A model generated the notes under the pieces. The model was not told the origin of the DNA, did not search any database, and saw only the letters and a program-made list of their open reading frames with translations. The position numbers and the translations under genes are program-made. Positions 2,675 through 34,034 of a stretch of 64,000 nucleotides of DNA are shown here, piece by piece (the first letter of the stretch is position 1; the number at the start of each line of letters is the position of its first letter). Origin of the DNA: Mariniblastus sp. (GTDB lineage Bacteria > Planctomycetota > Planctomycetia > Pirellulales > Pirellulaceae); the NCBI GenBank assembly GCA_022447555.1, contig JAKVBF010000011.1:124001-188000 (forward strand). Direction: 5' to 3'.

Positions 2675-3518
2675 TCCACCGTGCGCCAGCTCGTTGTGCT
2701 GCAATGTTGCCAACGTGAATGTCGGGCGATCGAATCACCTCACCCGCTTTCAAACCAAGAAACCACTGTGACATCCAGGACGAAATGTGTCAGAAGACCG
2801 GAACAAAAGGAAGAGACACACAGAGAACTCTCTAAATTATCTGGATTGGCCCCCATTCCTCTGGCCTACAAACCGATTGAGAAAGACATGCTTCGCACCT
2901 TGACCATCATCGTATCGGCTGCGAGCAGCGCGATCTCCGCCTCGGCGTGAGGCCTAGGACCTCCTCCTCGAACCGCCATGCAACGAGTGCACCTCCGCGG
3001 AATGCCACCGCGGCTCTCTCGCCTACGTCTATCTCTCGCCGCTCATGGGCTTCGTCACCCTGCAGGCTGATCAGATCAAACTCGAGGACGGCAGCGGAAC
3101 CTCGCGAGAGCTTGTGGCCAGCGGTGTGAGTGACATCGCCGCCCCACGGCACCCTTTCTAGAGTCAGATCTTCTATCTCAACGGACTCCCTCTCTTGATC
3201 CCACAGATGGTGGCCGCCGATGAAAAAGGGCCTCTTACCCCGATTGCTAGCAGAAAGACTCTGCAAAACCGATAGGTATATTATCCTTACTGAAATGCTG
3301 GCACCATCTTGATCCTTTTCCCCACGCAAAAAAGTTGCCGTTGCGAAGATGAGCCATATACTCAATAAAAACAACTGGACGATCTTGAAAATCGGCTCAT
3401 TTAACCGGCGTGACGGAAAACAGTTCAGGAAGAATTGTATTACGTTCAGGCTGGCCATCGCATTTAACGACCAATCAGATAAACGAAAATAAATCCCCAA
3501 GACAACGGAGCAGACGCT
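2675..3518 (+). other. 844-bp gap without a convincing gene
   Basis: No frame gives a recognisable protein. A more GC-rich stretch at about 2925-3160 differs from its surroundings. An ATG at 2888 opens a short frame resembling a signal peptide (MLRTLTIIV...SASA) that stops at 2950. A second frame from about 2958 reads through two CxxC/ECH-like cysteines and ends near 3162. This could be the remains of a small exported protein, but I do not recognise a family. A minus-strand frame covering 2907-3587 runs into the next gene and is not credible. The end of the gap contains a TGCTAGCA site (3245-3252). Confidence 0.4.
3245..3252. promoter_or_regulatory. TGCTAGCA palindrome, site 1
   Basis: Exact 8-bp palindrome, 267 bp before the GTG of the GT4 glycosyltransferase. 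It belongs to the longer form TTGCTAGCAGAAAG shared with sites 4 and 5. One of five exact copies in the window, all intergenic. Proposed operator; no binding protein is identified. Confidence 0.45.
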
Positions 3519-4796
3519 GTGGGAGTTTTTGAACAAATCGCAGGGACAAAGTTGAGAATCTTTGGTGGCCCAAGAAAATCGGGCCAACCGCTAACACCTC
3601 AACGTAAGCGAGTTCTTTTTGTTTCACACGAAGCGACCCGAACCGGTGCGCCCAAAATCATCCTCAACATCCTGAAACATTTTTCAGAGAACTGTGAAAT
3701 TCAATGTGAGACGATCCTTCACAATGGAGGGCATCTAGCGTCCGAATTCGCCCGGCATTCGGAAGTGACCTGCCTAAACCTGGCCCGAAAACAAACGGAC
3801 GAGTTGCAGCGAAAAGTTCGCAAGATTGTTCAGAAAGAAAAGAACAATCCGCCGGTTCTGGCCATCTGTAACAGCATGGAGTCAAGGTTCATCGGAAAAG
3901 AACTTGCCGAGTGCGATGTGCCGGTCATTTCTTTGGTACACGAATTACCATCATCCTATGACACGGAGGATTACGACAACGTTTTCGACCAATCCAAGAA
4001 AATCGTCTTCCCGGTCCACGCAGTTCGCGATGCGGCAGATAAGAAAACGCCGCTGCCGCCAGGTAAATGTACCGTACTCCCTCAAGGCCTATTGAATCCA
4101 GATTTCGGCAAAGGCATCACACGCCAACAAGCTCACGAACAAATCCGGAAAGAGTTGTCACTGCCGGAGAATAGCTTTATCGTTCTCGGCTGTGGCACTT
4201 TGGATTTACGAAAAGGAATCGATCATTATTCAAACATCGCGAAAAAGGTTGTGGGACAAAATAAATCAGATACCCCGGTACACTTCATCTGGGTGGGAGA
4301 GGGGCCCCGATGGACGCATTCCCCATATCACTACGTTCAACTCGATCTAGAAAAATCAAAGGCAAAGCCTTTCGTCCACTTCATTGGTGAGCGAAACAAC
4401 GTTGACCCCTACTTTGTCGGCGCCGACGCGTTTTTGATGTCATCTCGCGTCGATCCATTTCCTTGTGTCATTCACGAAGCAATGGCAACCAGCCTTCCCG
4501 TGATTACATTTGCGGAATCGGGGGGTGCTTCTGAAGCCGTCGCTGGCGGAGCAGGTTTCGTTGTTCCGTATGCTGATTACGACCAAACGGCAAATATTAT
4601 ATGCATGTTAGCCACTCAGCCGGAAATTGCTGCGGGCATCCGCAGTCGATCTCTCGAACGAGTTCACTCGCGTTACCGATTCAGTGATTATGGCGATCAA
4701 CTGATACAATTATCAGAGACCGTGACTGGCACGACATTCCAGAATGCAACCCCTGCACTTAAGGTGATGGAAATGCCCATGCAGCGTGCGGCCTAA
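3519..4796 (+). CDS. Glycosyltransferase family 4 (GT-B) protein
   Basis: Cytoplasmic retaining glycosyltransferase of 425 residues that would add a sugar from an activated donor to a growing surface glycan. After a short leader, RVLFVSHEATRTGAP is the usual N-terminal glycine-rich GT4 loop. The C-terminal half has GCGTLDLRKGID, a typical donor-domain start, and HEAMATSLPVITF with a later SGGASEAV, which fits the conserved E-x7-E donor-binding region. The GTG start is supported by an upstream ACGGAG about 8 bp away. It is followed by a convergent group on the minus strand. Donor and acceptor cannot be read from the sequence. Confidence 0.87.
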   Translation: MGVFEQIAGTKLRIFGGPRKSGQPLTPQRKRVLFVSHEATRTGAPKIILNILKHFSENCEIQCETILHNGGHLASEFARHSEVTCLNLARKQTDELQRKVRKIVQKEKNNPPVLAICNSMESRFIGKELAECDVPVISLVHELPSSYDTEDYDNVFDQSKKIVFPVHAVRDAADKKTPLPPGKCTVLPQGLLNPDFGKGITRQQAHEQIRKELSLPENSFIVLGCGTLDLRKGIDHYSNIAKKVVGQNKSDTPVHFIWVGEGPRWTHSPYHYVQLDLEKSKAKPFVHFIGERNNVDPYFVGADAFLMSSRVDPFPCVIHEAMATSLPVITFAESGGASEAVAGGAGFVVPYADYDQTANIICMLATQPEIAAGIRSRSLERVHSRYRFSDYGDQLIQLSETVTGTTFQNATPALKVMEMPMQRAA

Positions 4797-4874
4797 AGCA
4801 TTACTCTGGGATTGTCAAAGTTTCGAGGCCGCTTCATCAGCAATACTACCTGAAAAAGTCTGCCAGTCGCAGAT

Positions 4875-5369
4875 TTACCAAACGCAATGACAGACTCCCC
4901 ATTGCCCTTCATTTTCGTCGACGCCAAGCGTAATTTCGTCGATCGCCTGATCCAATCGATCATCTCTGATCGCCTTCAATTCACTAATCATGAATCTTGC
5001 AATCAACTCAGCCGTCGTGTTGGCGATGGGGAGTAAGAGACAATTATCATACGGGAAAACCCAGCGGCGTTGTTCATAGGTAACGAGAACTTCATCGTTA
5101 CCATCGTCTACCTGAACCCGTATCTCAGGGTGCAGCGTGGGCAACAACACTTTGTGATCCATCCTTCTTACGAGACCATTTAAGGCGTCTCGCAAGGCAA
5201 TAAAATCAACGACGTAACCATTCTCATCCAACTTGCCAAACACCTCACACCGGACACGATAGTTGTGCCCGTGAAGGGACTCACAGATATTTCCGGCAAA
5301 CGTAATGAAATGAGCAGCGCTAAAAATAAGCTGTTCTTTTTCTAGTAAAACACTGAATCGTTCCGACAT
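4875..5369 (-). CDS. 6-pyruvoyl-tetrahydropterin synthase / QueD-family protein
   Basis: Pterin-forming T-fold enzyme of 164 residues from the preferred ATG at 5369 (an upstream TTG at 5408 is possible). Zinc ligands are His20 in FSAAH and His33/His35 in LHGHN. The catalytic Cys of the family is present at C29, and D71-H72 lie in MDHK. The family converts dihydroneopterin triphosphate to 6-pyruvoyl- or 6-carboxy-tetrahydropterin. It lies just 3' of a CitG-like gene on the same strand and no other queuosine gene is visible. Pterin synthesis for tetrahydromethanopterin is therefore a reasonable alternative to queuosine. That role is inference from context. Confidence 0.83.
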   Translation of the reverse strand: MSERFSVLLEKEQLIFSAAHFITFAGNICESLHGHNYRVRCEVFGKLDENGYVVDFIALRDALNGLVRRMDHKVLLPTLHPEIRVQVDDGNDEVLVTYEQRRWVFPYDNCLLLPIANTTAELIARFMISELKAIRDDRLDQAIDEITLGVDENEGQWGVCHCVW

Positions 5370-5420
5370 TTCCCCGTGGCTCCCCTCAAAAAATTCGAAC
5401 ACGTCCAAGTAGTCAATCCG

Positions 5421-6293
5421 TCATTGTAAGCGACCGCGTGTGAATGCCAATTCTCCATCAAACAGCATCACCATCAGGCCCGCAGCAATCAGGTCGGCAG
5501 TGGTCCCCGGATTACGACGATGACCGTCCGCCCTCATCCAGAAGTCGAGGTCACCGACCGCTTTCCAATAACCTTCGATTCCAAATTTCAAGGCCTCTAA
5601 GCACCTTCCGGCCATCGCCTGTGCCTGTAAGGCTGTCGGATCACCACACTTGCGAGCAATCAGAGAATCAGGAAAACGTGATAGTAATGCCACATGGGCA
5701 AAGACAATGGCTTCCGACGAGCCATCGAATTTCTTCAAGCCTTCCTTAAGGAGAGGAACGACATCCGAAAAAATATTCTGGAAACTATCTCGATACTGTC
5801 TGGCGACCATATCCCATTCTGAGGCATACGTCATTGCGTCGATTAAATGAACAGGGGCTTCTTGCTGAATGTCCATCCGTTCCACTGTTGGCATTCCACC
5901 CGATTGAGCCAAGCGGATAGCGGCATATACGGATCTAGAGTCATCGGCCGTTAATTCGAGTAAAACTTGGGACAGCGCCTCTGCGTCCATCCGATTAAAC
6001 GATTGGGCACTGCGTCCTAAGGGGCAAAGTAGGAGTGCCAACCCCAAATTGGTATTGCTACCCACGTGCTTGCGCGTCGCTTCGACCACGTTCAAAATCA
6101 TCTCACCCAGAGATTCGTTGCTCTTCTGATCGATGGTCGCGCCCAAAAGCTCGGCGCTCACCATAAAATCAACAAGTCCCACATCTTCGAAATCGGCCCC
6201 TCGGTGGACGTTTCCCGGTTTCGGAGCCGCTACTTCCAACAAGCAAGCCAAACTCGCAATTCGACCCGGAGATAACATCGTTGGAGGGGACAT
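5421..6293 (-). CDS. Triphosphoribosyl-dephospho-CoA synthase (CitG/MdcB)-family protein
   Basis: Member of the CitG family, which condenses dephospho-CoA with ATP to make a prosthetic-group precursor. Diagnostic blocks are EVAAPKPGNVHRG near the N-terminus, VGSNTNLGLALLL, and near the C-terminus the PGTTADLIAAGL motif with RRNPG before it. No citrate or malonate lyase acyl-carrier gene is nearby. CitG homologues also occur with tetrahydromethanopterin-linked C1 genes in planctomycetes and methylotrophs, and the pterin synthase next to it fits that. The frame is open to 6404, but the family match begins after the ATGs at 6293 and 6278. Starting at 6293 leaves a 49-bp gap after the preceding hydrolase gene rather than an overlap. 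Confidence 0.8.
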   Translation of the reverse strand: MSPPTMLSPGRIASLACLLEVAAPKPGNVHRGADFEDVGLVDFMVSAELLGATIDQKSNESLGEMILNVVEATRKHVGSNTNLGLALLLCPLGRSAQSFNRMDAEALSQVLLELTADDSRSVYAAIRLAQSGGMPTVERMDIQQEAPVHLIDAMTYASEWDMVARQYRDSFQNIFSDVVPLLKEGLKKFDGSSEAIVFAHVALLSRFPDSLIARKCGDPTALQAQAMAGRCLEALKFGIEGYWKAVGDLDFWMRADGHRRNPGTTADLIAAGLMVMLFDGELAFTRGRLQ

Positions 6294-6342
6294 AGATTTG
6301 ACGTTGCTATGAAGTGGTTGCAAAATTTCCGGTGAGCTCAGA

Positions 6343-7296
6343 TCAAAGAGGGGCTGTCTCTTGCAGGAATTGGTTAACGATATCCAGAACTTGATCGGGA
6401 GCATCTTCCAGAACGTAATGCCCCGCTGTACCGATTTCCTCCACCCTCGCCTGGGGCCAATGCTGCTGAAAACGCCGCAGGCATTCGGGGCGAAAACACC
6501 AGTCTTTCATTCCCCAAATGAGCTGGATAGGCCAGTCCGAAAGTGAATCCAACCCTTTTTCGATTTCACTGAGTACCGACCACGTTGGGTGGCGTTCTGA
6601 CAAAGGGATGTCTTTGACAAATTGATAAATCGCCATCCGATTGGCCCATGTGTCATAGGGCGCTAAGAAGCCTTCCGCGATTTCCGATGGCAATCCACCA
6701 GGCTGTTCAGTCGCCATGGTGATCGCCGCTTTGGCGAACATATTGAATCCCTGAACCCCAACTTTGCCAATCAACGGCCACCGACAAGCCCGTATTCGAA
6801 GGGGGATGTAGGGAGGAGGGAACGCCCCCGTATTAAACAATACAATGCTTTTGAATCGCTCGCGCCGTTTCAATAATGCCCCCAAGCCGATAGCCCCACC
6901 CCAGTCATGAGCCATCAATACGATCTTCTCTAAATTCAGCTCATCGATCAAAGCACACAAATTAGCAATGTGGGTTTCCAGACAATAGGAATAGTCAACA
7001 GGTTTATCACTCAAACCACATCCGACGTGGTCAACAGCAATCGTTCTATATCGGTGCGAGAATTGCTCAATCTGACGTCGATATAGAAAAGACCAGGTAG
7101 GATTCCCATGCACCATCAAGATAGGTGCGACAGGTTCCGCGGCAGCGCACTGATCGACGTAGTGCATTTGCACCGAGCCCAAAGAGAGATATTTCGATTG
7201 AAAATCGTAATCTTTCTTCCAAGCTTGTCGCTTGTCCGCGACAGCCCTTGAATCAGCGACGGTTTGCTGAGTCGCTTCGAATGCATCGGATTTCAT
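6343..7296 (-). CDS. Haloalkane dehalogenase-superfamily alpha/beta hydrolase, OleB-like
   Basis: A 317-residue alpha/beta hydrolase. The oxyanion block HGNPTWSFLYR lies at about residue 64. The nucleophile is Asp131 in AHDWGG, with the Trp that marks the haloalkane dehalogenase group directly after it, and the catalytic His is about residue 293 in AGHYVLED. Blocks DHVGCGLSDKP, FVKDIPLS and WG-x-D-x-C-F resemble OleB, the beta-lactone decarboxylase of olefin synthesis, more than classical dehalogenases. No oleA, oleC or oleD gene is in the window, so the substrate is open. It heads the minus-strand group running to the CitG-like and pterin synthase genes. Confidence 0.8.
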   Translation of the reverse strand: MKSDAFEATQQTVADSRAVADKRQAWKKDYDFQSKYLSLGSVQMHYVDQCAAAEPVAPILMVHGNPTWSFLYRRQIEQFSHRYRTIAVDHVGCGLSDKPVDYSYCLETHIANLCALIDELNLEKIVLMAHDWGGAIGLGALLKRRERFKSIVLFNTGAFPPPYIPLRIRACRWPLIGKVGVQGFNMFAKAAITMATEQPGGLPSEIAEGFLAPYDTWANRMAIYQFVKDIPLSERHPTWSVLSEIEKGLDSLSDWPIQLIWGMKDWCFRPECLRRFQQHWPQARVEEIGTAGHYVLEDAPDQVLDIVNQFLQETAPL

Positions 7297-7348
7297 AAGT
7301 CAACTGGTAAGAAATGGGAACACTCAAAGCTTCGCAGTTTACCTTAAA

Positions 7349-8248
7349 TCAAGCCACTCTACGATTGGCTTGGCCCGTCATTCGATTTTTCCGACATTCG
7401 ATGAATAGTGAGTCCGGCTTGCGAACCACATTTTCTTTGGAATCCAGTTCAAAATCACCGAACTGCTCTATTTTACTCGTGGAGGCTGTCACCACCTCAA
7501 ATGAGTCAAAACCAATTTGCTGGCAAAGGTCTCTTAACGAAAACCGATCATACATCCAACGATGAATCTCTCCCCGACTCCGAAAGAGGCCCTCATCAAA
7601 AGCTAAGACAGCGTCGGAACCAAGGAAAATCCGAGTCACGCAGCGAACGAACTTTTCTCGCCACCTCTCGGTCAACCGCCCTAGGCGCCGACCCAACCGG
7701 TGTTGACTAGGACTGCTGGAGTCGGGAGAGCGACAAACCCAAAATTCGTCACCGACTCGAGATCGAACGAATTGAGAATTTTTTAGATCGGCCGTTGCCA
7801 TGTAGCGTCCCATACGGCCACCAGAACAATCTCGGACCAATTGGTCCAAGAGCTCAAGCTTGATCCACCGATAGTCCTCTTGAGATTGTCGGTCTCCTGC
7901 CCAAGCCTGTGCATGCATTTTGAGATAAAGCTCGGCAATCTTTTCAAGATCCGGTACGACGATTCGAAGAATTCCGCCGGGCTCAAGAACCCGGTAGCAT
8001 TCGCGGAGTAGATCTATACCTTCCTCTGGCTTCAAGTGTTCCAGAATATGAGAATGGTATACCGCCGACAGGCTATCGGACGGACATGGAATACCTTGTG
8101 TGATATCGTGCTCGACCACGTTCGGATCCATCGCCTCCAGATCCATATTTAACCAGGCTGGATGATGGGTTCTTCCACATCCAATGTTGAGCATTTTAGG
8201 CCGCTCACGTTCCGACATCGTTGCGAGCGTTTTGGATTCAGACACCAT
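7349..8248 (-). CDS. Class I SAM-dependent methyltransferase
   Basis: Methyltransferase with a Rossmann SAM-binding motif (NIGCG at the N-terminus), an acidic residue after strand 2 (NMDLE), the HILEH motif and the post-motif EPGGILRIVVPD. This pattern matches the methyltransferase 11 group that often decorates sugars or lipids. The ATG at 8248 is chosen over a TTG at 8266 because GGAGG (8255-8259 on the complement) sits 6 nt before it. That ribosome site lies inside the 3' end of the upstream TylF-like gene, which overlaps by 11 nt, so the two are translationally coupled. The acceptor is unknown; a glycan methylation role is inferred from the neighbourhood. Confidence 0.83.
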   Translation of the reverse strand: MVSESKTLATMSERERPKMLNIGCGRTHHPAWLNMDLEAMDPNVVEHDITQGIPCPSDSLSAVYHSHILEHLKPEEGIDLLRECYRVLEPGGILRIVVPDLEKIAELYLKMHAQAWAGDRQSQEDYRWIKLELLDQLVRDCSGGRMGRYMATADLKNSQFVRSRVGDEFWVCRSPDSSSPSQHRLGRRLGRLTERWREKFVRCVTRIFLGSDAVLAFDEGLFRSRGEIHRWMYDRFSLRDLCQQIGFDSFEVVTASTSKIEQFGDFELDSKENVVRKPDSLFIECRKNRMTGQANRRVA

Positions 8249-9356: not shown

Positions 9357-9364
9357 TGCTAGCA
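9357..9364. promoter_or_regulatory. TGCTAGCA palindrome, site 2
   Basis: Exact copy ending 7 bp before the ATG of the glycosyltransferase at 9372, in the gap between divergent genes. At this distance a bound protein would block or reposition initiation of that transcript. It lacks the AGNAAG extension seen at sites 1, 4 and 5. Confidence 0.45.
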
Positions 9365-9371
9365 TTTCACC

Positions 9372-10331
9372 ATGCCACAGCTCAATACGCCGATAACTTT
9401 TTGCATCTTCAATCGACCGGATGTGACCGCGCGCGTTTTTAATGAAATCGCTCGCCAACAGCCCAAACACTTACTCGTCATTGGCGACGGCCCGCGGCCC
9501 GACCACCCCACGGATCCAGAACAAATTGCTCGCTCCCGACAAATACTTGACCGCATCGATTGGCCATGCGATCTGAGAACCTGTTTTACAGATGAAAACA
9601 TGGGATGCGGAAAACGAATGGGAACGGGGCTGACCTGGGCATTCGATCAATTCGAGGAACTCATCATCCTCGAAGATGATTGTCTGCCCCACCCCTCCTT
9701 TTTTTCGTTCTGCGAGACCTTGCTCGATCGCTTTCGGAACGAGCCACAAGTCATGATGATCAGTGGGAATCATTTCCAGCCCACTCCCCACACTCGGCAA
9801 TCCTACTACTTCTCACATTGGCCACATATTTGGGGATGGGCCAGCTGGCGAGATTGCTGGCAAGAATTCAATGCCGTCCAACCCCCGAAAAACGAGCTTG
9901 AGTTAACAACCATCTTGTCGAAGGTCTTGAATCAGGATGACGAGATCATTCGCTGGACATCAATCATGCGAGATTTTTTCGACGGCAGAATTGACACGTG
10001 GGATTTTCTCTGGACCTACGCGATTTGGAACCGACAGGGACTCGCCGTTCTGCCAAGTCAAAACCTCGTCTCCAATTTGGGTTTTGGCCATGACGCAACC
10101 CACACTCTCGACCAAAATTCTCCCCTCGCCGCTTTGGCAACCCACGACATCGGCACGCTGCATCATCCCTCAACCATTGCCCGAGATGGGATCGCAGATC
10201 GTTGGACCTTTGAAAACATCATGCAACTAGAGGGCGACGCCACGGCAGCAGAGGATCAGGCTAAGGATTCGACAAAAACTCGCTCTTGGTTGCGTCGACT
10301 GCTCCGTTCTAAGAACAAGCTAAAAGGGTAG
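9372..10331 (+). CDS. GT-A-fold glycosyltransferase (HlpA/GT2-like)
   Basis: A 319-residue protein opening with TPITFCIFNRPD, the nucleotide-sugar entry strand of GT-A enzymes, followed by LVIGDGPRPD. LIILEDDCLPHPSFF at about residues 98-112 is the metal-binding acidic motif (DxD equivalent, EDD). The downstream HWPHIWGWASWRDCW is characteristic of the hemolytic-protein-HlpA-like group of putative sugar transferases. It is probably cytoplasmic. Its stop lies 8 bp before the next gene, so the two form an operon. Donor and acceptor are unknown. Confidence 0.8.
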   Translation: MPQLNTPITFCIFNRPDVTARVFNEIARQQPKHLLVIGDGPRPDHPTDPEQIARSRQILDRIDWPCDLRTCFTDENMGCGKRMGTGLTWAFDQFEELIILEDDCLPHPSFFSFCETLLDRFRNEPQVMMISGNHFQPTPHTRQSYYFSHWPHIWGWASWRDCWQEFNAVQPPKNELELTTILSKVLNQDDEIIRWTSIMRDFFDGRIDTWDFLWTYAIWNRQGLAVLPSQNLVSNLGFGHDATHTLDQNSPLAALATHDIGTLHHPSTIARDGIADRWTFENIMQLEGDATAAEDQAKDSTKTRSWLRRLLRSKNKLKG

Positions 10332-11823: not shown

Positions 11824-11831
11824 TGCTAGCA
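11824..11831. promoter_or_regulatory. TGCTAGCA palindrome, site 3
   Basis: Exact copy 114 bp before the pseB ATG, with flanks extending the palindrome to GTGCTAGCAC. It sits in the 180-bp gap separating the glycosyltransferase pair from the pse operon, which is where a pse promoter would be expected. Confidence 0.45.
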
Positions 11832-14963: not shown

Positions 14964-16529
14964 ATGCCCGTCCGAATTCCAACACACAAACTTTTGATCC
15001 GTGCAGACGCGGGACCCAAACAGGGTACAGGCCATGTGATGCGTTGCCTTGCACTCGGGCAGGCATGGCAAAAAATGAGAGGCCAAGTCACTTTTCTGAC
15101 CGGCCCGCTCCCGGCCCGACTCTCCATGAGACTCAAAGCTGAAAACATCACGCTTCAAACACTTCCGCCAGACGCAGACGACCATGCTGAAAACCTTCTT
15201 TTCAATAAATTGATCGAACAATATGATCCTGACTGGGTCGTTCTTGATGGCTATCAGTTCGGTGATGATTATCAAAAAAAATTAGTACCGGGAAACGCCC
15301 GTCTCTTGGCCATTGATGACTACGGACACGCCCAGCACGACTTGGCAGATGCCGTCTTCAATCAAAATGCATACGCCACCACCCAAGACTACTCTCCCGT
15401 CCGAAGCGGACCGGAGGTGATCGCTGGATTAAAGTACGTTTTGATACGTGACGAATTCCATTGTCTCAACAAAAATCCTGCTGCGTTACCGAGGGCAAGC
15501 AAGGCCAAGCGTATATTAATCACCTTCGGAGGCTCTGACCCCAACAATACAACAGACGAAGTGCTTCAAATCCTAAACGACTGCGCCCTACCCCTCACCT
15601 CAGTCGACGTGATTGTCGGCCCCTGCAATCCTCACATCGAAAGCCTGAAAGCAACCGCGAAAAAATCGCAACTCTCGATTCGGCTCCATTCCAATGTCGA
15701 TCGTATGTCGAAACTATTCGAACGCACCGATTTGGCAATCACCGCAGCTGGTTCAACGTGTTATGAGTTATGCCACGCAGGGGTACCAATGATTGCGATC
15801 CCAATTGCCCCCAACCAACAAGCGGTCGCCGGCGCGCTCTGCCAGCAAGGGGCCGCTCAAGAAATAACCCAAAATGACTTGAAAACCGGGCACGCTCGAA
15901 AGGTGATCGGACAGGCCATTCACGACGTAAAACTGCGGCAATCCCTTTCCGAGACCGGCTTTCGTCTCGTGGATGGACAGGGTGCCGCGAGGCTTGCTCG
16001 GCGGCTCTGTTCGCACCTCTATCACTTTCGCCAAGCCCAAGACCAAGACGTTCCGATGTTGTTGGATTGGCACAACGACTCGGAGATTCGAGCGACCCGC
16101 TTCGGCCCCACCACGTCAAATGAAAACCAGCTTCGCAACTGGTTTCTTAACCAACTCGATGACGCGAGGCACTTGAACTGGATGATCGACAACCACGACG
16201 GTCGTCCGGTCGGACAAATACACCTTGATTCGTCCTCGGGAAACAGAACGGAGGTTCGAATCAGCCTGACCCCATCAATGCGTGGTAAAGGAATCGGAAC
16301 GGCCCTGATTGAAGCGGCCTGCCGAAGAAGAAACAAAGAGTCTGGCGACACTCAGTTTGTCGCCTATATCAAACCGATCGATATCGCTTCTCAAACGGCC
16401 TTCCGAAAAGCTGGATTCAAACCTGTGGCCACGACAACCATTCATGGACAGGTCGCCTTAGAGCTCGCTTATCACTCAGAGAGGGAACACGCTGCGTCTA
16501 TTCTTACCCCGCAATTGAAAGCATCTTAG
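14964..16529 (+). CDS. Fused UDP-sugar hydrolase (PseG) and N-acetyltransferase (PseH)
   Basis: Two consecutive pathway enzymes in one 521-residue chain. Residues 1 to about 345 are PseG-like: LIRADAGPKQGTGHVMRCL at the start is the GT-B-like hydrolase signature, ILITFGGSDPNNTT follows, and ITAAGSTCYELCHAGVP is the UDP-binding block. From about residue 353 a GNAT domain follows, with the acetyl-CoA loop MRGKGIGTALI and a C-terminal AFRKAGF. PseH acetylates the 4-amino group and PseG removes UDP. The two genes are separate in many bacteria, so this fusion links successive steps. The following gene begins 1 bp after the stop. Confidence 0.88.
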   Translation: MPVRIPTHKLLIRADAGPKQGTGHVMRCLALGQAWQKMRGQVTFLTGPLPARLSMRLKAENITLQTLPPDADDHAENLLFNKLIEQYDPDWVVLDGYQFGDDYQKKLVPGNARLLAIDDYGHAQHDLADAVFNQNAYATTQDYSPVRSGPEVIAGLKYVLIRDEFHCLNKNPAALPRASKAKRILITFGGSDPNNTTDEVLQILNDCALPLTSVDVIVGPCNPHIESLKATAKKSQLSIRLHSNVDRMSKLFERTDLAITAAGSTCYELCHAGVPMIAIPIAPNQQAVAGALCQQGAAQEITQNDLKTGHARKVIGQAIHDVKLRQSLSETGFRLVDGQGAARLARRLCSHLYHFRQAQDQDVPMLLDWHNDSEIRATRFGPTTSNENQLRNWFLNQLDDARHLNWMIDNHDGRPVGQIHLDSSSGNRTEVRISLTPSMRGKGIGTALIEAACRRRNKESGDTQFVAYIKPIDIASQTAFRKAGFKPVATTTIHGQVALELAYHSEREHAASILTPQLKAS

Positions 16530-17647: not shown

Positions 17648-17655
17648 TGCTAGCA
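17648..17655. promoter_or_regulatory. TGCTAGCA palindrome, site 4
   Basis: Exact copy 21 bp before the ATG of the second ABC exporter, in the extended form TTGCTAGCAGCAAG. Relative to site 1 it also shares AAAC and ATA at the same spacing downstream. Its place suggests that the exporter has its own control separate from the pse operon. Confidence 0.45.
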
Positions 17656-17676: not shown

Positions 17677-19677
17677 ATGAAAAATCTCAATCGAGCGTTA
17701 CGGATGGCGCTCAATTACCGCTGGTCATTAATCGGGGCTTCTTTGTGCTCCCTGCTTGTTGCTCTATTTTGGGGCGCTAACTTAGGCGCCGTCTATCCTT
17801 TTGTAGAAGTTGTTCTTAAAGACAAATCCCTCACCGAATGGGTCGAACAACGGATCGAAGACTCTCATCAGGCAATCGAAAAATCCGAAGAGGAAATCAA
17901 AGAACTCGAATCCCAAATCACTACCGGGGAATTGGACACCAAACAAACCGAAGTTAACCGTCGCGCTGTTCGATCTCTAAAAACCGACATCAAAACCCAA
18001 GAAGAGCGGATCTCTTGGTCCGTAGCGTTGGAACCCTGGATTAAACGATACGCGCCCAGTGATCCTTATATGACGCTCGTCATTTTAATGTGTCTGATGG
18101 TGATCGGAACGATTTTTCGAGGTGTCTTTTTAGCAACGAGTATTTACCTCGTGGCTCGAGTGGGTCAACGAACCATTCTTGACTTACAAAACCGTGTTTT
18201 CTCAAACGTCTTGAACATGGAAATTGCCGAGATTGATGTTCGGGGGACGGGTGACCTCATCAGTCGAATACGGGGTGAAACGGGCGCTATCGGCGGCTCC
18301 ATCATCACCTTGTTTGGGAAAACGGTTCGCGAACCCCTCAAAATGTTTGCTTGCTTGATCGGCGCAGCCGTCGTGAATTGGAGGCTCCTTCTGTTTTCTT
18401 TGTTGGTTTGCCCTTTGGCTGTTTACCTGATGGTTCAATTGGCCAGAATGACCAAGCGCGCCAGTAAGAAAGCAATGGAAGAATCAGCCCGACTTCTGGA
18501 CCGGCTTTATCAAGCATTGACTTACATGCGGGTCGTCAAGGCGTTCAACATGGAGGAAGATGAGCGCGCTCGCTTCCGGGTGGTTGCTCATGACGTTTAC
18601 AAAAAAGGGATGCGGATTGCACTTTATGGTGCTCTCGCAAGATCGAATAACGAACTTCTGGGGGTCAGTATCATCAGCCTCTCAATCCTTGCCGGTGGCT
18701 ACATGGTATTGAATCAGGAGATGTACCTATTCAATATTCGAATGAGTTCGGCGCCCATGGAATTTGGAGAGTTGATGGCATTCTTTGCCTTTTTGATTGG
18801 TGTTTCCGACCCACTACGAAAACTCGGTAACGTCTACAACCAAATCCAGTCCGGGATAGTTGCGGCCGATCGCGTCTTTCCTCTAATTGATCAACAACCT
18901 GCCGTGGCCGCTCCCGCCCGTCCTCATGCGGTACCGAATGGTGCATTGGGCATTGAGTTTGACAATGTAAAATTCGCCTACAATGACGACGCACCTGTCT
19001 TGAATGGCGTCACCTTTGATCTTCCCGCCGGATCATCCATGGCTATTATTGGTCCTAACGGTTGTGGAAAAAGCACTCTCATTAACTTACTCCCTCGGTT
19101 CTTTGATGTAGCAAGCGGATGTATTCGAGTGGGTGGTCGCGACCTTCGAGATTTCTCTCCTAATGACCTTCGAGCCGAAATCGGCTACGTCACGCAAATG
19201 ACCATGTTGTTTCGAGATTCCATTGGCGCGAACATTAGTTATGGGAATCCGGATGCCACTACAGAGCAGATCGAAAATGCAGCCCGTCGCGCCCATGCTC
19301 ATGAATTCATAAGAGACCTCGAGACTGGCTATGAGTCGGACATTGGTGAACACGGTGGACGCCTTTCTGGCGGCCAACGCCAACGACTTGCGTTGGCACG
19401 CGCAATATTGCATGATCCGCGAATCCTTATTTTGGATGAAGCGACCAGCCAAATTGATCCAGAAAGTGAAGCACTGATCCATGCCACCCTCAAGTCGTTT
19501 ATCAAAAACCGCACCACCCTTATCGTGACTCATCGTATGTCGACACTTGAATTGGTCGACCGAATCATGGTTATGAACAAAGGAAAGGTTCTGGATTGTG
19601 GAACCCACGCAGAATTAATCAAACGTTGCGATGTATACCGTCGTCTAAGACAGTCTGATTTGGAGAAGGTTGCGTAG
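17677..19677 (+). CDS. MsbA-type ABC exporter half-transporter with an extracytoplasmic coiled-coil insert
   Basis: A 666-residue homodimer-forming exporter, paralogous to the one cut by the left edge. TM1 (about residues 15-40) is followed by a charged, heptad-like insert at about residues 48-112 (ESEEEIKELESQ-type pattern) before TM2 at MTLVILMCLMV. That loop is much longer than in MsbA. The ATPase has Walker A GPNGCGKST at about 459, LSGGQRQR at about 563, Walker B ILILDEATSQID at about 583 and H-loop VTHR at about 617. The kpsF-like gene starts 2 bp after the stop. Probable role: flipping or exporting the lipid-linked pseudaminic-acid-containing glycan, inferred from context. Confidence 0.9.
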   Translation: MKNLNRALRMALNYRWSLIGASLCSLLVALFWGANLGAVYPFVEVVLKDKSLTEWVEQRIEDSHQAIEKSEEEIKELESQITTGELDTKQTEVNRRAVRSLKTDIKTQEERISWSVALEPWIKRYAPSDPYMTLVILMCLMVIGTIFRGVFLATSIYLVARVGQRTILDLQNRVFSNVLNMEIAEIDVRGTGDLISRIRGETGAIGGSIITLFGKTVREPLKMFACLIGAAVVNWRLLLFSLLVCPLAVYLMVQLARMTKRASKKAMEESARLLDRLYQALTYMRVVKAFNMEEDERARFRVVAHDVYKKGMRIALYGALARSNNELLGVSIISLSILAGGYMVLNQEMYLFNIRMSSAPMEFGELMAFFAFLIGVSDPLRKLGNVYNQIQSGIVAADRVFPLIDQQPAVAAPARPHAVPNGALGIEFDNVKFAYNDDAPVLNGVTFDLPAGSSMAIIGPNGCGKSTLINLLPRFFDVASGCIRVGGRDLRDFSPNDLRAEIGYVTQMTMLFRDSIGANISYGNPDATTEQIENAARRAHAHEFIRDLETGYESDIGEHGGRLSGGQRQRLALARAILHDPRILILDEATSQIDPESEALIHATLKSFIKNRTTLIVTHRMSTLELVDRIMVMNKGKVLDCGTHAELIKRCDVYRRLRQSDLEKVA

Positions 19678-28062: not shown

Positions 28063-28433
28063 GCGAAGTTGAAGAGACGATCGCTGGTGGCGCATGCCAC
28101 GAGAGGAAAGTCCGGGCTCTATAGGACAGAATGGTCGGTAACGCCGACCGGTCGTGAGATCAGGGAAAGTGCCACAGAAAGTAAACCGCCGAACGGGTGT
28201 CTAGGCACCGCGTGGTAAGGGTGAAACGGTAAGGTAAGAGCTTACCAGATTGCCGGGTGACCGGCAGTGCTAGGTAAACCCCATTCAGAGCAAGGCCAAG
28301 CAGAAAGCAGTGGCGGTCCGCCGCGTGATGACTTTCGGGTAGGCTGCTTGAATCGTTTAGCAATAAACGATCTAGATAAATGATCGTCACCAACCTCGGT
28401 TGGTCACAAAACCCGGCTTACGATCAACTTCGC
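28063..28433 (+). ncRNA. rnpB: RNase P RNA, bacterial type A
   Basis: Catalytic RNA that trims tRNA 5' ends. Conserved pieces occur in order: GAGGAAAGTCCGGGCT (P4 side, about 28101), ACAGAA and AAACCGCC, GGTAAGGGTGAAACGGT, GTAAACCCC with AGCAAGGCCAA, GGGTAGG, TAGATAAATGATCGTC, and ACAAAACCCGGCTTA near the end. The terminal helix P1 pairs GCGAAGTTGA (28063-28072) with TCAACTTCGC (28424-28433), which fixes the ends at about 371 nt. The T run after P1 begins at 28434 and overlaps the stop of the convergent mutS gene. Confidence 0.95.
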
Positions 28434-28436
28434 TTT

Positions 28437-31082
28437 TTATTCACTTTGAGGATGATCGGTTCCCAATTTATCCGACTCTTCGGCAAATTCGGTTTTCCAC
28501 TCACTCAGAACCTGGATGGCCTCAATGGGCGTCAATTGATTGATATCGACAACCTTCAAACGTTCGACAATTGGGTGGGTCGCCGTTTCAAAGAGAGTCA
28601 ACTGAACCCCACTATCCGCCGGAGGGTGCCGCGGAGATAGACGTTCCCTATTTTTTTCGGTTGTCCCACCATTTTCAAGCCTTTTGAGAATCTGCTCCGC
28701 TCTCAAATTGACCGCGCCAGGTACGCCCGCCAATTGCGCTACGTGAATACCATAACTCTTGTCCGCACTACCTTGAATGATCTTGTGAAGGAAGACAATC
28801 TTTTCCTCCCATTCCTTGACGGCAACGTTGTAATTCCTGACACCCGCCAACTGGGATTCTAAGTCCGTCAGCTCGTGGTAATGCGTGGCGAATAAAGTGC
28901 GACAGCCAATATGATCGTGAATGTATTCGACGATTGACCAAGCCAGTGACACTCCATCGTAAGTACTCGTACCCCGACCGATTTCATCCAAGATCACCAA
29001 ACTAGACGCAGAAGCTGTATTGAGGATCCGAGCCGTTTCTGTCATCTCGACCATGAAGGTGCTTTGGCCTCGAGTTAGCTCGTCGCTTGCCCCAACCCGA
29101 GCAAAGATGCGGTCAACGATTCCTAAGCGAGCCGATTTAGCCGGTACAAAACTGCCGATCTGGGCGAGCAGTGTGATCAAGGCAACTTGCCTGATGTAGG
29201 TGCTTTTACCAGCCATATTCGGACCGGTAATAAGGTGCAAAAAACCTCTGTCGTCGTCAATGGTTGTATCATTCGGCACGAACGCCCCAAGAGGCTCAAG
29301 AATATCCAAAACCGGATGACGGCCCTCTTCAATGACCAAGGACTGATCTTCAGTGATCAAAGGACGACAATAACCCTGCGCTGACGCCAGCTCGCCCAGC
29401 CCAGCCACTACGTCAAGTGCCGCGATCATCGCGGCATTCGATTTCAACCGCGCCGTGTTACCCTGAACCAGTTGTCTCAACTGCTCAAACAAACGAATTT
29501 CATGTTCCAGTGCTTTTTCGTCAGCAGAAAGAACTTTCTCTTCGTACTCCTTCAATTCAGGGGTGATATAACGCTCGGCATTCTTTAACGTTTGTTTGCG
29601 AATAAAAGTCTCTGGAATTTTGTCGCGATGAGTGTGCGTCACTTCTAGATAGTACCCAAACACTTTGTTGTATCCAACCTTCAAACTGGGGATACCGGTG
29701 GTCTCGCAAATCGCTTTTTGATACTCGGCGATCCATTGCTTGCCTCCTCGCGCGAGCTCTCGAAAACCATCCAACTCAGAATCAAAACCAGTTCTCAGGA
29801 CTCCGCCATCCTTGATTTGTGCCGGGCAGGGATCCTCAATCGCTCGCACCAGCTCCTCACGCAAATCGGGACACGGATCCAACTCTGTTTTTACCCGTTG
29901 CAGCCAGGGACTGGAAAACGATTCCAATTTTTGAACGAGCCGAGGAATGGCATCCAAAGTTTTAGAAATGGCACTCAAGTCTCTAGGAGAGGCACGGCCC
30001 GTCGCAACGCGTGAGACCAAACGTTCTAAATCAAAAACACCGTTAAGTAACTGTCGCAAGTCGCGTCGCTGTTCGTTACAAGAAACCATTTCTTCTACCG
30101 CATCATGACGGTTCCCGATCTCAGTCCGATCGGTCAGCGGGGCCGTTAGCCAAGTTCCCAACAATCGCGATCCCATCGGTGTGACCGAACGGTCGACCAC
30201 CTCAAATAAGGAACCTTGTTGGCTACCAGTCCTAATCGTCCGACTGATTTCAAGGCTACGCCACGTTGCTTGGTCAATTTCAACAAATTCACTCTGCCGG
30301 TAGGACATCAGGAAGTCGACATGCTCAAGCCGGCTGTTTTGTGTCTCCTTTAGATATTCAAGTATGCCTCCGGCAGCTCGAATACCTGGGCTGTCACCTG
30401 GCACCACACCAAAACCATCAAGTGTTGCCACGCCAAAATGTTTTTGCAGCCCCTCGATGGCATGGTCACTTGCAAACGTCCAACTGGGACGACTGGTCAA
30501 CATGGCGTGGGGACAACAACTCCGGACAAAATCCATGTCATCTTCGTGACAAAGGATTTCGCTCACCGATAATCTTGCGAGCAAGTCGGCCGCCTTCATT
30601 CCACTTGCAACCGACTGGACAAACCGGCCTGTAGATAATTCGATCCAAGAGACGCCAAACCTTGGTTCAGGTGTTTTTTTAGACTCTGAATCGCAAACGA
30701 CCGCTGCGAGATAATTACTTTGCGTAGGCTCCAACAATGAGGCATCCGTCACCGTTCCCGGTGAAACGACCTGTTGCACCTCACGCTTGACAAGACCCTT
30801 TGCCATTTTAGGGTCTTCCACCTGCTCACAAACAGCGACGCGAAATCCTTGCTTGATCAATTTGCCCATGTAACTATCAAGCTGGTGGTGGGGAAAACCG
30901 GCCATCGCGATAGCATTTTCGCTTTTATCGCGACTGGTAAGTGTTAAACCAAGCACTTTTGAGGTCGTCACTGCGTCTTCGTAGAAAAGCTCATAGAAAT
31001 CCCCCATACGAAAGAGCAGCAGGGCATCCCCACAGGCTTTCCTAGCTTCCTCGTATTGACGCATCATCGGTGTTTTTGACAT
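28437..31082 (-). CDS. mutS: DNA mismatch repair protein MutS
   Basis: Recognises base mismatches and small loops and recruits MutL. From the ATG at 31082 (TPMMRQYEEAR) it is about 881 residues, close to the family norm. The frame upstream to 31208 has no family similarity. Mismatch-binding FRMGDFYELF, the connector and clamp domains, Walker A GPNMAGKSTYIRQ, ASDELTRGQSTFMVEM, LILDEIGRGTSTYDG (LVILDEIG) and ATHYHEL are present. The stop lies 3 bp beyond rnpB on the opposite strand. No mutL is in the window. Confidence 0.97.
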   Translation of the reverse strand: MSKTPMMRQYEEARKACGDALLLFRMGDFYELFYEDAVTTSKVLGLTLTSRDKSENAIAMAGFPHHQLDSYMGKLIKQGFRVAVCEQVEDPKMAKGLVKREVQQVVSPGTVTDASLLEPTQSNYLAAVVCDSESKKTPEPRFGVSWIELSTGRFVQSVASGMKAADLLARLSVSEILCHEDDMDFVRSCCPHAMLTSRPSWTFASDHAIEGLQKHFGVATLDGFGVVPGDSPGIRAAGGILEYLKETQNSRLEHVDFLMSYRQSEFVEIDQATWRSLEISRTIRTGSQQGSLFEVVDRSVTPMGSRLLGTWLTAPLTDRTEIGNRHDAVEEMVSCNEQRRDLRQLLNGVFDLERLVSRVATGRASPRDLSAISKTLDAIPRLVQKLESFSSPWLQRVKTELDPCPDLREELVRAIEDPCPAQIKDGGVLRTGFDSELDGFRELARGGKQWIAEYQKAICETTGIPSLKVGYNKVFGYYLEVTHTHRDKIPETFIRKQTLKNAERYITPELKEYEEKVLSADEKALEHEIRLFEQLRQLVQGNTARLKSNAAMIAALDVVAGLGELASAQGYCRPLITEDQSLVIEEGRHPVLDILEPLGAFVPNDTTIDDDRGFLHLITGPNMAGKSTYIRQVALITLLAQIGSFVPAKSARLGIVDRIFARVGASDELTRGQSTFMVEMTETARILNTASASSLVILDEIGRGTSTYDGVSLAWSIVEYIHDHIGCRTLFATHYHELTDLESQLAGVRNYNVAVKEWEEKIVFLHKIIQGSADKSYGIHVAQLAGVPGAVNLRAEQILKRLENGGTTEKNRERLSPRHPPADSGVQLTLFETATHPIVERLKVVDINQLTPIEAIQVLSEWKTEFAEESDKLGTDHPQSE

Positions 31083-31429
31083 AGGAAAAAATGGTATCAA
31101 CGAGCGATCGACAAGGCGAGTGGCGAAGTCGCGAATATCTAAAATTCTGTCCATAGCAACCCGAGTCTGAACCGAGAAAGCTTGGTTTAATGGGACAATT
31201 TGTTCCAATTAGCCGATCCCTAACAAAATGTCCGGCAGTGCCAATCAAACGAATAATAATCATTGTAAAGGCCGTCTTATGGATGTTCGGCCTCAGGTGA
31301 GCAATAAATAGTTGAGATTCGATTCCCCGTTGCTATAGTTGAGAAACCACTGGAAAACACTTCTCTTCTCACCTGAACAGGCTGTGCCCGACTGGGTATC
31401 GTCCTTGTTTTTCCCCTTGGAGGATCACT
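31083..31429. other. Divergent intergenic region between mutS and the tyrosine kinase
   Basis: 347 bp without a supported gene if mutS begins at 31082. It contains the likely promoter of the downstream tyrosine kinase and an ATG-containing reading frame continuing mutS upstream that shows no homology. No RNA gene or repeat was recognised. Confidence 0.5.
31312..31339 (+). promoter_or_regulatory. Candidate sigma70-type promoter for the Wzc-like kinase
   Basis: TTGAGA (31312-31317) and TATAGT (31334-31339) are separated by 16 bp, a good housekeeping-type arrangement 91 bp before the GTG at 31430. Confidence 0.45.
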
Positions 31430-33808
31430 GTGGAAACCCACAATCAACCGTTACAACCTCAGATGGGCCCGCCCATACTGTTATCTGATACCAATCACCA
31501 AGATGAGGACATCGGCTTCGATTTTTGGGGAGTCTTGAATCGCCGAAAATGGCTGATTTTTCTGGGACTCGTAACGGGAATGGGACTCGGCTATCTGTAC
31601 GATGTTCAGACAGCAAAGATTTACGAAAGCAAAGCCGTTATTCGGATCGAGCCCAAGAACCCCATGGCTCTACCCATTAGCCGCTCCGACTTGATGTTAC
31701 CTGAGACGGACAACTTTGCCCGCCGTCACGATCGGATCATTAATCAAGAAATCACCGTCGATACCTGCCTCCGCAGCAATAATCTTTTTGTACTTGATTC
31801 TCTGTCTGACCTGCCCGAAGACGAGGCAGTGGCAGAAGTACTTAAAAACTTAGAGATCGAGCCGGAGCGAGAGGACCCCTTCAACTTCCAATTATCGTTT
31901 CGCTCAACAGACGGCGACGACTCTCAAACGATCCTCAACAATTTAATTGAAACGTACCGCAACGAACTAGAAAATGAATACAACGATAAAAGCGACCAAT
32001 TCGTAACGCTTTTGAAAGATGTGAAACATCAATTTGATACGAGCTATAAAAAAGTGGTGGATGAAATCCGAATCAAACGGGCACAAATCACCTCTCCCGT
32101 GGTCGCTGAAAATGGCAGGAATATTCATCAAGTTAGGATTCAGGATCTTTCGGCAAGGATCGATCTACTCAAGATCGAACTCAACAATTTCTTGGCGTCT
32201 AAAGAACGGATTTTAGAATCGCTCGAAAACGGCAACGAGGCCATGAAAGAGCAGATCTGGATTCTCGCTCAAAACAAAGACCTGTCTTTGAACAATGGTA
32301 GTGAGCAGATGCTGCGTAGCGAGTATGAACTGTCTCAAAAGACGGCGCAAGCAGAAATCGCACTGAATAGTGCTAAAATGCGATTGGGTGCGAGTCACCC
32401 TACGGTGAAGACACTGGCCGCACAGGCTGCGATGTGGCGACAGTTCGCCAAAGAATCGGCACTGAACTCATCCTCTGCAAGCAGTGAACCCGATGATGTC
32501 ATTCTACGACGCTTCCTAATTGCCATTGAGCAGAGTATTTTTGATGCTCAATCAAATTTGCGGGAATCGACAAACGAATTTGAGTTCCATGTGGGCGAGG
32601 AAGAAAAACTCTCGAAAGTGCGTGAAGAAATCGCTGATCTGACTCGCGAGCGTGACTATATCGAGGGTCTTTTGACAACTGCCCGAAATAAAATTTTGGA
32701 GATTGACGCGAGTGAGGACCTCAACGGTGGCAATAAGCAGGAGGGCTTTTCTTTTCGCAGCCTGAGGATCGCCAGTTACGGCGATGTTGTTTGGCCCATT
32801 TTACCGATTTCTTTGGGTATTGGTGGAATGATCGGCCTGCTGTGCGGTTTCGGCTTGGGATGTTTGGTCGACCTCGCTGACAAGACATTCCACAACCCGG
32901 ATGAAATCGTCAAGCAACTGAGACTCCCATTGATTGGCCACATTCCAGTGATCAGTCAAAACAAACGATTCGTCGTTGACCAATCCTTGGTTGAACCCAT
33001 TGTTTGTTGTTATCACCGTCCTAAATCGCAAACATCTGAAGCATTCCGAGCCGTTCGAACGGCTCTTTACTTCAATACACAGGGTAAGGAGCACTCCGTC
33101 ATCCAGGTGACGAGCCCAACCCCGGGAGATGGGAAATCGACCGTAGCGGCTAATCTAGCCGTCTCGATTGCACAATCTGGCAAGCGATGCCTGCTGGTCG
33201 ACGCCGACATGCGACGTCCTCGGCAAGCGACGACGTTTGGGCTTAAATCAGCCGAAGGATTTGCAACCATTCTCAGCGGGCAATCTCACTGGCGAGATGT
33301 TGTCTTTGATTGCGAAGAGGTCGGTGGCCTGTCGGTACTACCCTGTGGAGCGAAGCCCAACAATCCGGCCGAACTAAGCTCTCTGCCGGCCGTCAAAGAT
33401 TTGATTGAAGAATTGCGCGAAGAATACGATTTCGTCATCATCGATTCACCACCGCTACTCGCCGTAACGGATCCTTGCCCGATTGCAGCACGTGTTGACG
33501 GCGTAATTTTGACTTTACGAATCAAGAAAAACGTACGCATCAGCGCGGAGAGAGCCTCCGAGATACTGTCCAACCTCGGTGCCAAAACGATCGGCCTAGT
33601 CGTCAACGGAGTGGGTGCGCAATCTGGATATGGCAGCCAGTACACCTATGGAGCCTATCGGGCAGGCTACGCTTACAACGGCTACGGCTACGGCTACGGC
33701 TACGGTTATGGCTCCGGCTCCGGCTCTAAATATTACGATGAGCAAAAGACGGGTATTCGCGAACCTCTGCGTGGCATCGAAGCCTCGCCCACCAGCAGCA
33801 ATGACTAA
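31430..33808 (+). CDS. Wzc-type polysaccharide biosynthesis tyrosine autokinase
   Basis: A 792-residue inner-membrane co-polymerase and protein tyrosine kinase that controls exopolysaccharide chain length and export. It has a Wzz domain with TM1 at about 43-62 (KWLIFLGLV) and TM2 at about 453-478, a periplasmic coiled-coil region between, and a BY-kinase domain. That domain has Walker A TPGDGKST at about 564, Walker A' LLVDADMRRP at about 588 and Walker B FVIIDSPP at about 668. A C-terminal Tyr-rich tail (751 to the end) has a (Gly-Tyr)5 run, the usual autophosphorylation cluster. The GTG start is backed by GGAGGA 5 nt upstream. No Wza or polymerase gene is adjacent. Confidence 0.93.
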   Translation: METHNQPLQPQMGPPILLSDTNHQDEDIGFDFWGVLNRRKWLIFLGLVTGMGLGYLYDVQTAKIYESKAVIRIEPKNPMALPISRSDLMLPETDNFARRHDRIINQEITVDTCLRSNNLFVLDSLSDLPEDEAVAEVLKNLEIEPEREDPFNFQLSFRSTDGDDSQTILNNLIETYRNELENEYNDKSDQFVTLLKDVKHQFDTSYKKVVDEIRIKRAQITSPVVAENGRNIHQVRIQDLSARIDLLKIELNNFLASKERILESLENGNEAMKEQIWILAQNKDLSLNNGSEQMLRSEYELSQKTAQAEIALNSAKMRLGASHPTVKTLAAQAAMWRQFAKESALNSSSASSEPDDVILRRFLIAIEQSIFDAQSNLRESTNEFEFHVGEEEKLSKVREEIADLTRERDYIEGLLTTARNKILEIDASEDLNGGNKQEGFSFRSLRIASYGDVVWPILPISLGIGGMIGLLCGFGLGCLVDLADKTFHNPDEIVKQLRLPLIGHIPVISQNKRFVVDQSLVEPIVCCYHRPKSQTSEAFRAVRTALYFNTQGKEHSVIQVTSPTPGDGKSTVAANLAVSIAQSGKRCLLVDADMRRPRQATTFGLKSAEGFATILSGQSHWRDVVFDCEEVGGLSVLPCGAKPNNPAELSSLPAVKDLIEELREEYDFVIIDSPPLLAVTDPCPIAARVDGVILTLRIKKNVRISAERASEILSNLGAKTIGLVVNGVGAQSGYGSQYTYGAYRAGYAYNGYGYGYGYGYGSGSGSKYYDEQKTGIREPLRGIEASPTSSND
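33680..33727 (+). repeat. Eight tandem hexamers encoding (Gly-Tyr)5-(Gly-Ser)3
   Basis: Four exact GGCTAC units are followed by GGTTAT, two GGCTCC and GGCTCT. In-frame, 48 bp, within the kinase's tyrosine tail. The unit count could change by slippage without shifting the frame. Confidence 0.9.
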
Positions 33809-33850
33809 CCTCCAGTGGTCTCGTCAATTCCTCTGAATTGATAAGCCATG

Positions 33851-33885
33851 GGCGTCTTCGATCCTCCGAAGACGCCTTTTTTTTT
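33851..33885 (+). terminator. Rho-independent terminator after the Wzc-like kinase
   Basis: A perfect 10-bp stem GGCGTCTTCG/CGAAGACGCC with a 6-nt loop (33861-33866), followed by nine T residues (33877-33885). Confidence 0.92.
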
Positions 33886-34026
33886 AACCATCTAAAACGG
33901 GTCTGAATCAGCCGACTAGAAAATGGATAAAGCAGGACGTTTCGTTGATGAGCCCGGAACCCAATCATCACGACTGCCTCGACACCCTCAACCCGTTAAA
34001 GACACGGCCTCCCAAACGGGTGGCAT

Positions 34027-34034
34027 TGCTAGCA
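34027..34034. promoter_or_regulatory. TGCTAGCA palindrome, site 5
   Basis: Exact copy 79 bp before the ATG of the HEAT-repeat lipoprotein, in the extended form TTGCTAGCAGGAAG. It is the only copy outside the first 18 kb and lies just downstream of the exopolysaccharide kinase gene. Confidence 0.45.

Follow-up and report, generated by a model that had tools for sequence, protein, structure and literature searches.

The stretch of DNA analysed here, called the window, comprises 64 kb of a Mariniblastus sp. genome (G000:C3:124001-188000; the G000 assembly has 4.19 Mb in 62 contigs) and carries a surface-glycan region in which the palindrome TGCTAGCA, with GCTAGC as its inner hexamer, occurs exactly five times (Table 1). 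The genes following these copies encode a GT4 glycosyltransferase, a GT-A/GT-B pair (a weakly GT2-like gene with a Capsule_synth gene), a pseB-like Polysacc_synt_2 protein, an ABC exporter and a HEAT-repeat protein, and domain matches agreed in each case with the names given in the original prediction. That prediction had further described the five copies as exact and intergenic, which was confirmed by a recount and by codon-usage gene calls. The calls were made with our own script, not with a standard annotator, and start codons are uncertain. All five copies were non-coding, with conflicting calls for the site at 9357, where one of two call sets placed a 49-aa antisense open reading frame (ORF) and the other left the site intergenic. 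This ORF was rejected, since the site directly precedes the GT-A start codon. A mechanical ORF list also contained a 226-aa antisense frame across the site at 3245, which lacked codon-usage support. Dinucleotide shuffles of the window gave a mean of 0.44 copies and none of 100 shuffles reached five; at genome density, five copies in 64 kb correspond to a Poisson P of 2.3e-4, or about 0.015 after taking 65 windows into account. Eight other palindromic 8-mers also occur at least five times in the window, and the count alone is not striking.

Table 1 Coordinates of the palindrome copies and of associated features (window positions unless another sequence piece is named)
Feature	Position	Strand	Context
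TGCTAGCA	3245..3252	no strand	266 bp 5' of GT4 glycosyltransferase gene (3519-4796)
TGCTAGCA	9357..9364	no strand	GCTAGC core ends 8 nt 5' of GT-A ATG (9372-10331)
TGCTAGCA	11824..11831	no strand	5' of pseB-like Polysacc_synt_2 gene (11891/11945-12982)
TGCTAGCA	17648..17655	no strand	21 nt 5' of second ABC exporter ATG (17677-19677)
TGCTAGCA	34027..34034	no strand	between Wzc-like gene (31430-33808) and HEAT-repeat gene (34113-34838)
TGCTAAAGT, extended -10-like box	34067..34075	+	consensus match only
TSPPYY DNA methyltransferase	L321:4764-5666 (G000:C34)		after arginyl-tRNA synthetase gene
TSPPYY DNA methyltransferase	L322:4396-5322 (G017:C4)		after arginyl-tRNA synthetase gene

In the whole G000 genome TGCTAGCA was found 35 times, with about 29 copies expected by scaling the window shuffle mean. 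Taken literally this count is near chance, yet the placement of the copies is strongly intergenic: 27 of the 35 in a first set of gene calls, 29 in a second and 30 when the call at 9357 is corrected. Background values were obtained from a 400-kb sample of G000, picked by hand at spaced places with the site list already known, in which 12.3% of the DNA, 88 of 580 CTAG tetramers (15%) and 6 of 19 GCTAGC hexamers were intergenic. The distribution of TGCTAGCA is non-random with respect to intergenic DNA (27-30/35 versus a background of 12%), and 29/35 compared to the CTAG rate gives a P of about 1e-18; as the original prediction had supposed, coding sequence does not carry the palindrome equally often. 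A bias of this kind could arise by chance and composition if CTAG were avoided in genes, so that any CTAG palindrome would look intergenic, and both the near-chance total and the slight intergenic excess of CTAG itself (15% versus 12%) agree with such an effect. Other NNCTAGNN palindromes in the sample, however, are far less intergenic (5/26; Fisher P 1e-6 versus 29/35), and composition cannot account for conservation at orthologous places. Taking the sample together with the orthologue counts, the blind hexamer count and the order-wide dnaA2 pattern described below, we rejected this explanation, the probability of which we consider negligible.

The sample itself contained no TGCTAGCA where about three were expected. 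GCTAGC is rare genome-wide, with 306 occurrences as compared to 2713 for its reverse, in part because CTAG is scarce generally. In a syntenic block around the window, of which 11-14.5% is intergenic in G000 and in the relatives G010 and G017, the intergenic share of GCTAGC was 7/13 in G000 (124 kb, 9357 counted as coding), 8/11 in G010 (80 kb) and 9/11 in G017 (79 kb). The flanks of the 35 G000 sites revealed no clear base preference or further consensus, and near-copies within 300 bp of them showed no clear excess (8 seen, 6.0 expected); on these grounds a longer hidden motif was rejected. The same holds for a reading of TGCTAGCA as an extended -10 element (TGnTAnnnT), since T, with 11 of 70 pooled sides, is less frequent than any other base immediately flanking the 8-mer.

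A further copy lies 2.3 kb to the left of the window, at a second dnaA gene (C3:121968) that we name dnaA2. Its product contains the Bac_DnaA ATPase and a helix-turn-helix (HTH) domain and scores 336.6 bits against the NCBIfam DnaA model, just below the cut-off of 343.9. The dnaN-linked dnaA1 is a separate locus; dnaN follows dnaA1 in G010, the one genome read for this. DnaA1 of G010 (L355:1348-2430) has about 360 aa as compared to 445 aa for DnaA2, and neither of the two gave a Pfam match to the DnaA N-terminal domain. In the dnaA2 promoter, TTGACA-N5-GCTAGC-N5-TA[GA]AAT, the hexamer sits in the middle of the 16-bp spacer. The pattern TTGACA-N5-GCTAGC-N5-TANNNT was present once per locus in 26/26 dnaA2 loci of the genus, which represent 26 of the 28 genus genomes, dnaA2 being split into two fragments in G012 and only a weaker paralogue being found in G036. 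Across the order, whose nearest named relatives are Pirellulaceae, the composite pattern written from the genus promoters was found in 139 of 396 genomes, at one place each, and in 81 of 144 sampled genera, as compared to 4 genomes for a reversed-pattern control. In 29 of 30 pattern loci inspected, the promoter is followed on its own strand by a dnaA homologue (31-48% identity); in the 30th the contig ends at the promoter. The consensus of these 29 loci is TTTGACAgcngTGCTAGCaggCGTAcAATCG, and the further flanks are little conserved across the order. G000 contains the composite promoter once only, and it is found at none of the five window sites. The dnaA2 copy is the best-conserved TGCTAGCA site and overlaps a promoter that is recognisable as a consensus match; it argues more strongly than any other copy for the palindrome as a functional element. 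That the best-conserved copy is found at a dnaA paralogue outside the window is one of the points on which the original prediction, with its focus on glycan genes, does not hold in its first form.

Around dnaA2, one genome (G360; L392, +5088 to +5250 from the dnaA2 site) contains four intergenic GCTAGC in about 170 bp of a partly repeated stretch, and in three genomes of one genus (g13; L394, L395, L396) GCTAGCA is located 49 bp 5' of a DUF6690-like gene beside dnaA2. A role of the palindrome as an oriC- or parS-type marker was not favoured: the dnaN-linked dnaA1 lies elsewhere, and the motif resembles neither the DnaA box nor parS. One site lies inside parA in both G000 and G017.

Orthologous loci from the 28 same-genus genomes were then compared for the other sites. 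GCTAGC is retained at orthologous places although the surroundings have diverged, and it is this hexamer that forms the conserved core, flanked by T and A as favoured but not fixed outer bases, rather than the fixed 8-mer originally proposed. Within 100 bp 5' of the orthologous GT-A start, GCTAGC was found in 14 of 18 loci, at 8-37 nt from the ATG, compared to 4/18 for the next palindromic hexamer (18 of 23 loci were used, those without the GT-A start motif being dropped). It lies within 300 bp 3' of Wzc in 17/23 loci, with 5/23 for the next palindromic hexamer and 4 of 27 loci dropped as too short, and within 300 bp 3' of NeuB in 11/18 (next palindromic hexamers 7; 18 of 26 loci given); two copies 71 bp apart are found in the NeuB/exporter region of several clade members. 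For csrA, with paralogues pooled and 2 of 28 loci dropped, GCTAGC is present within 350 bp 5' in 20/26 loci and the next palindromic hexamer in 12. The hexamer also lies upstream of the GT4 orthologue in G010 and G017, and directly 5' of the second exporter in the Pirellulaceae contigs L135 and L136, but not L137; these three, all from Pirellulaceae metagenome-assembled genomes, are the only named contigs among the 80 loci kept whose match (60% identity) covers the whole exporter. The pseB site (11824), located just 3' of GT-B, was seen in no other genomes than G000, G010 and G033 among the GT-B loci compared.

In a blind hexamer count over 26 orthologous upstream triples from G000, G010 and G017 (14 of 40 triples were too short and left out), GCTAGC and the overlapping CTAGCA came first with 5, followed by 3 for the next hexamer. 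Seven of the 30 TGCTAGCA places in G017 match G000 site places: OmpA, DegT/amidotransferase, TPR, ketoacyl-ACP synthase III (KAS III)/peptidase C26, L012/L313, L018/L309 and parA, of which the L018/L309 and parA sites sit inside coding sequence. TGCTAGCA is conserved at orthologous promoters with diverged flanks, glnA being the exception, and a general loss of sites in relatives was not observed, apart from glnA and the pseB site. The proposal that the palindrome is a cis-element before separate glycan transcription units is thereby supported: the window sites are non-coding, and four of the five, the pseB site excepted, are retained by orthologues in genomes more distant than the two closest relatives.

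The genes adjoining TGCTAGCA genome-wide are of many kinds. They include csrA, glnA with an aminotransferase, OmpA, a TPR protein, a GT2 glycosyltransferase, a DegT aminotransferase with a glutamine amidotransferase, an RND pump, an efflux protein, KAS III and a helicase, and several have no Pfam match; glycan genes do not dominate this mixed set in G000. Genomes of the genus have 4-11 csrA-like matches (6 in G000), and a G017 csrA-like gene outside the glycan block (L294) also has TGCTAGCA upstream. Beyond the genus, 13 query proteins were compared with 20-kb pieces around dnaA2 from 20 genomes (19 of them of other genera). Of these 20 pieces, L405, which is from the same genus, was alone in having homologues of the exporter, GT4 and csrA; in other genera, a HEAT match was present in L402 and a diadenylate cyclase in L402 and L403. 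DUF6690 recurs as a dnaA2 neighbour in 16 of the 20 pieces. The intergenic share of further GCTAGC copies in these pieces only suggests an enrichment around dnaA2 beyond the genus. The putative dnaA2 operator thus appears widespread in the order, and the glycan part would, as far as tested, be a feature of this genus. A single regulator dedicated to the glycan locus, as first proposed, would agree with five window sites of which four have conserved orthologues, but conserved sites are also found at dnaA2, at csrA and at a set of unrelated genes, and the exporter and GT4 homologues accompany dnaA2 only within the genus. We consider such a regulator improbable. The element itself looks real; what does not hold is its restriction to glycan genes, given the csrA, glnA, OmpA, RND pump, KAS III and helicase neighbours, and the interpretation should be widened to a putative operator anchored at the dnaA2 promoter.

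We therefore favour, with a probability of roughly 0.8, the reading that TGCTAGCA, through its core GCTAGC, is an operator recognised by a sequence-specific regulator that many members of the order possess; its putative targets are dnaA2 and csrA, joined in this genus by surface-glycan genes. A protein bound between the -35 and -10 boxes of dnaA2, within their 16-bp spacer, would exclude RNA polymerase, and repression of dnaA2 would therefore be expected. Within the genus the same site is kept before csrA and at promoters or leaders of adjoining surface-glycan genes, where the candidate targets would be GT4, GT-A/GT-B, the ABC exporter and the HEAT protein, followed by the diadenylate cyclase. 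The GCTAGC core of the 34027 site, 5' of the HEAT gene, is 36 nt away from the TAAAGT of the extended -10-like TGCTAAAGT (replaced by TGCTAGAGT or TGCTAATCT in several relatives), and such a distance from a -10 is usual for activators. At GT-A and the exporter the site lies close 5' of the start codon. Because the positions differ, a regulator with mixed effects is likely, and genes of DNA replication and of the cell surface may share one regulator. What the sequences show directly is the palindrome, its preference for intergenic DNA, its conservation and its exact place in the dnaA2 promoter; binding of TGCTAGCA by a protein, repression of dnaA2 and co-regulation of replication with surface-glycan genes are what we infer from them. 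Two further ORFs of the region were noted: a DacZ-type diadenylate cyclase (window 35002-35958) immediately follows the HEAT-repeat gene and so likewise lies 3' of the site at 34027, and a single ORF at window 14964-16529 combines a glycosyltransferase-28 C-terminal domain with a GNAT acetyltransferase domain and resembles a fused PseG-PseH.

Several observations weigh against the operator reading. The genome-wide total of TGCTAGCA is near the dinucleotide expectation, and in G017 only 18 of 30 copies were called intergenic, below the value in G000. The exact composite pattern is absent from 257 of the 396 order genomes, and further GCTAGC copies in the 20 dnaA2 pieces are intergenic in 28 of 67 cases (42%), similar to TAGCTA (9/21) and AAATTT (13/32). 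The promoters are consensus matches and the regulator is putative; outside dnaA2 the position of the site relative to the promoter varies, with no clear promoter overlap at the five window sites. No more than 3 of 22 loci retain the glnA site, and many of the 35 sites may therefore be neutral. Finally, the genomes are related and do not count as independent: one close clade supplies several of the genus loci, including several GT-A positives.

Candidates for binding TGCTAGCA are a putative dimeric factor, DnaA2 and a switch linked to a methyltransferase. The location of the best-conserved site raises the possibility that DnaA2, with a changed DNA-recognition loop, itself binds TGCTAGCA in its own promoter and at other genes, mainly as a transcription factor. 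DnaA autoregulation is known, and DnaA2 has the ATPase and HTH domains. Its loop reads R[S/T/K/R]HST in 26/26 genus DnaA2 as compared to RDHST in DnaA1 (L353, L355), and in the order S or K replaces D in all 13 loci readable at this position (of 30 loci, 7 had no letters there, 1 was too short and 9 had no row); the aspartate of RDHST presumably contacts the DnaA box. Standard DnaA boxes are scarce near the dnaA2 promoter: only 5 of the 56 loci with this promoter have any between positions -300 and +500 relative to its -35. On the other hand, the 8-bp palindrome is unlike the non-palindromic 9-mer that DnaA normally binds as a monomer, and autoregulation by DnaA2 rests on association. The likeness to the DnaA box and its autoregulation lies in a site within a dnaA promoter; the sequence of TGCTAGCA is not TTATNCACA, the motif differs from TTATNCACA-like 9-mers, and the recognition loop of DnaA2 is changed. 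We regard it as unlikely that DnaA2 is the regulator, and as somewhat less likely still that this extends to an order-wide switch, in which a divergent DnaA2, off the classical DnaA box, would control its own promoter, csrA and envelope/glycan genes via TGCTAGCA.

Methylation offers another route, in which a solitary DNA methyltransferase would methylate TGCTAGCA and the methylation state would gate the promoters, as with CcrM/GANTC or Dam/GATC. PF01555 DNA methyltransferases occur in 28/28 genus genomes, with at least two matches in 27, and an enzyme of 300-308 aa with a TSPPYY motif is encoded directly 3' of the gene for arginyl-tRNA synthetase in each of the two genomes read; its solved relatives include the CcrM, RsrI and PvuII methyltransferases. 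The rarity and relatively intergenic position of GCTAGC would suit a methylation target. None of these methyltransferases is tied to GCTAGC, however, the scarcity of the hexamer partly reflects that of CTAG, and the preference for the outer T and A as well as the positional conservation are equally well explained by a protein site; we hold methylation to be distinctly unlikely. Scanning of the genes next to the TSPPYY enzyme identified arginyl-tRNA synthetase in both genomes, a ketopantoate hydroxymethyltransferase in G000 and a symporter in G017, restriction genes having been searched only there. A second type of DNA methyltransferase, of 583-584 aa, whose sequence contains a DPPF motif and continues into a long C-terminal extension, was seen at L320:2798-4552 (G000:C1) and L323:4481-6232 (G017:C9), and long frames of this type recur in many genus genomes. 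The end of the G017 copy weakly matches excinuclease UvrC-type models and looks GIY-YIG-like by eye, with no Pfam match there.

Returning to the operator reading, comparable arrangements are known from other systems. In lac/tet-type spacer operators a palindrome is likewise centred between a -35 TTGACA and a -10 TANAAT with a fixed 16-bp spacer, but here only 6-8 bp are conserved and most of those operators are longer. CtrA and GcrA-CcrM control dnaA and development in Caulobacter. These resemble the TGCTAGCA case in having a promoter motif that is short, depleted in the genome and present at dnaA as well as at envelope or developmental genes; they differ in sequence and phylum, the regulator is putative in our case, and the dnaA concerned is a second paralogue not linked to dnaN. 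CTAG methyltransferases of haloarchaea have N4-cytosine specificity. They resemble the methylation alternative as conserved orphan enzymes with a CTAG motif, and the accessible portion of the report on them contained no tie to GCTAGC or to a dnaA promoter (PMC6471742). In the PVC superphylum, a transcription-factor study in Waddlia looked for factors that govern replication and division genes as master regulators, noted DnaA paralogues and gave Euo as unique to Chlamydiae; its main text does not contain the string CTAG (PMC4989314). Among the papers listed, literature searches returned nothing recognisably related to TGCTAGCA, judged by titles, no work pairing 'dnaA promoter' with Planctomycet, and no recognisable use of this motif as a regulatory element, judged by titles and abstract openings.

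To our knowledge, no master cell-cycle regulator is known in Planctomycetes, and none was recognised in the literature search. Should the DnaA2 switch be true, it would couple the replication programme with a sessile state in which polysaccharide is produced. The short putative operator, fixed in its spacing within the dnaA2 promoter, would provide a handle for finding the regulator by DNA affinity, and the sites at csrA and at the surface-glycan genes would allow testing whether replication control and surface attachment are coupled.

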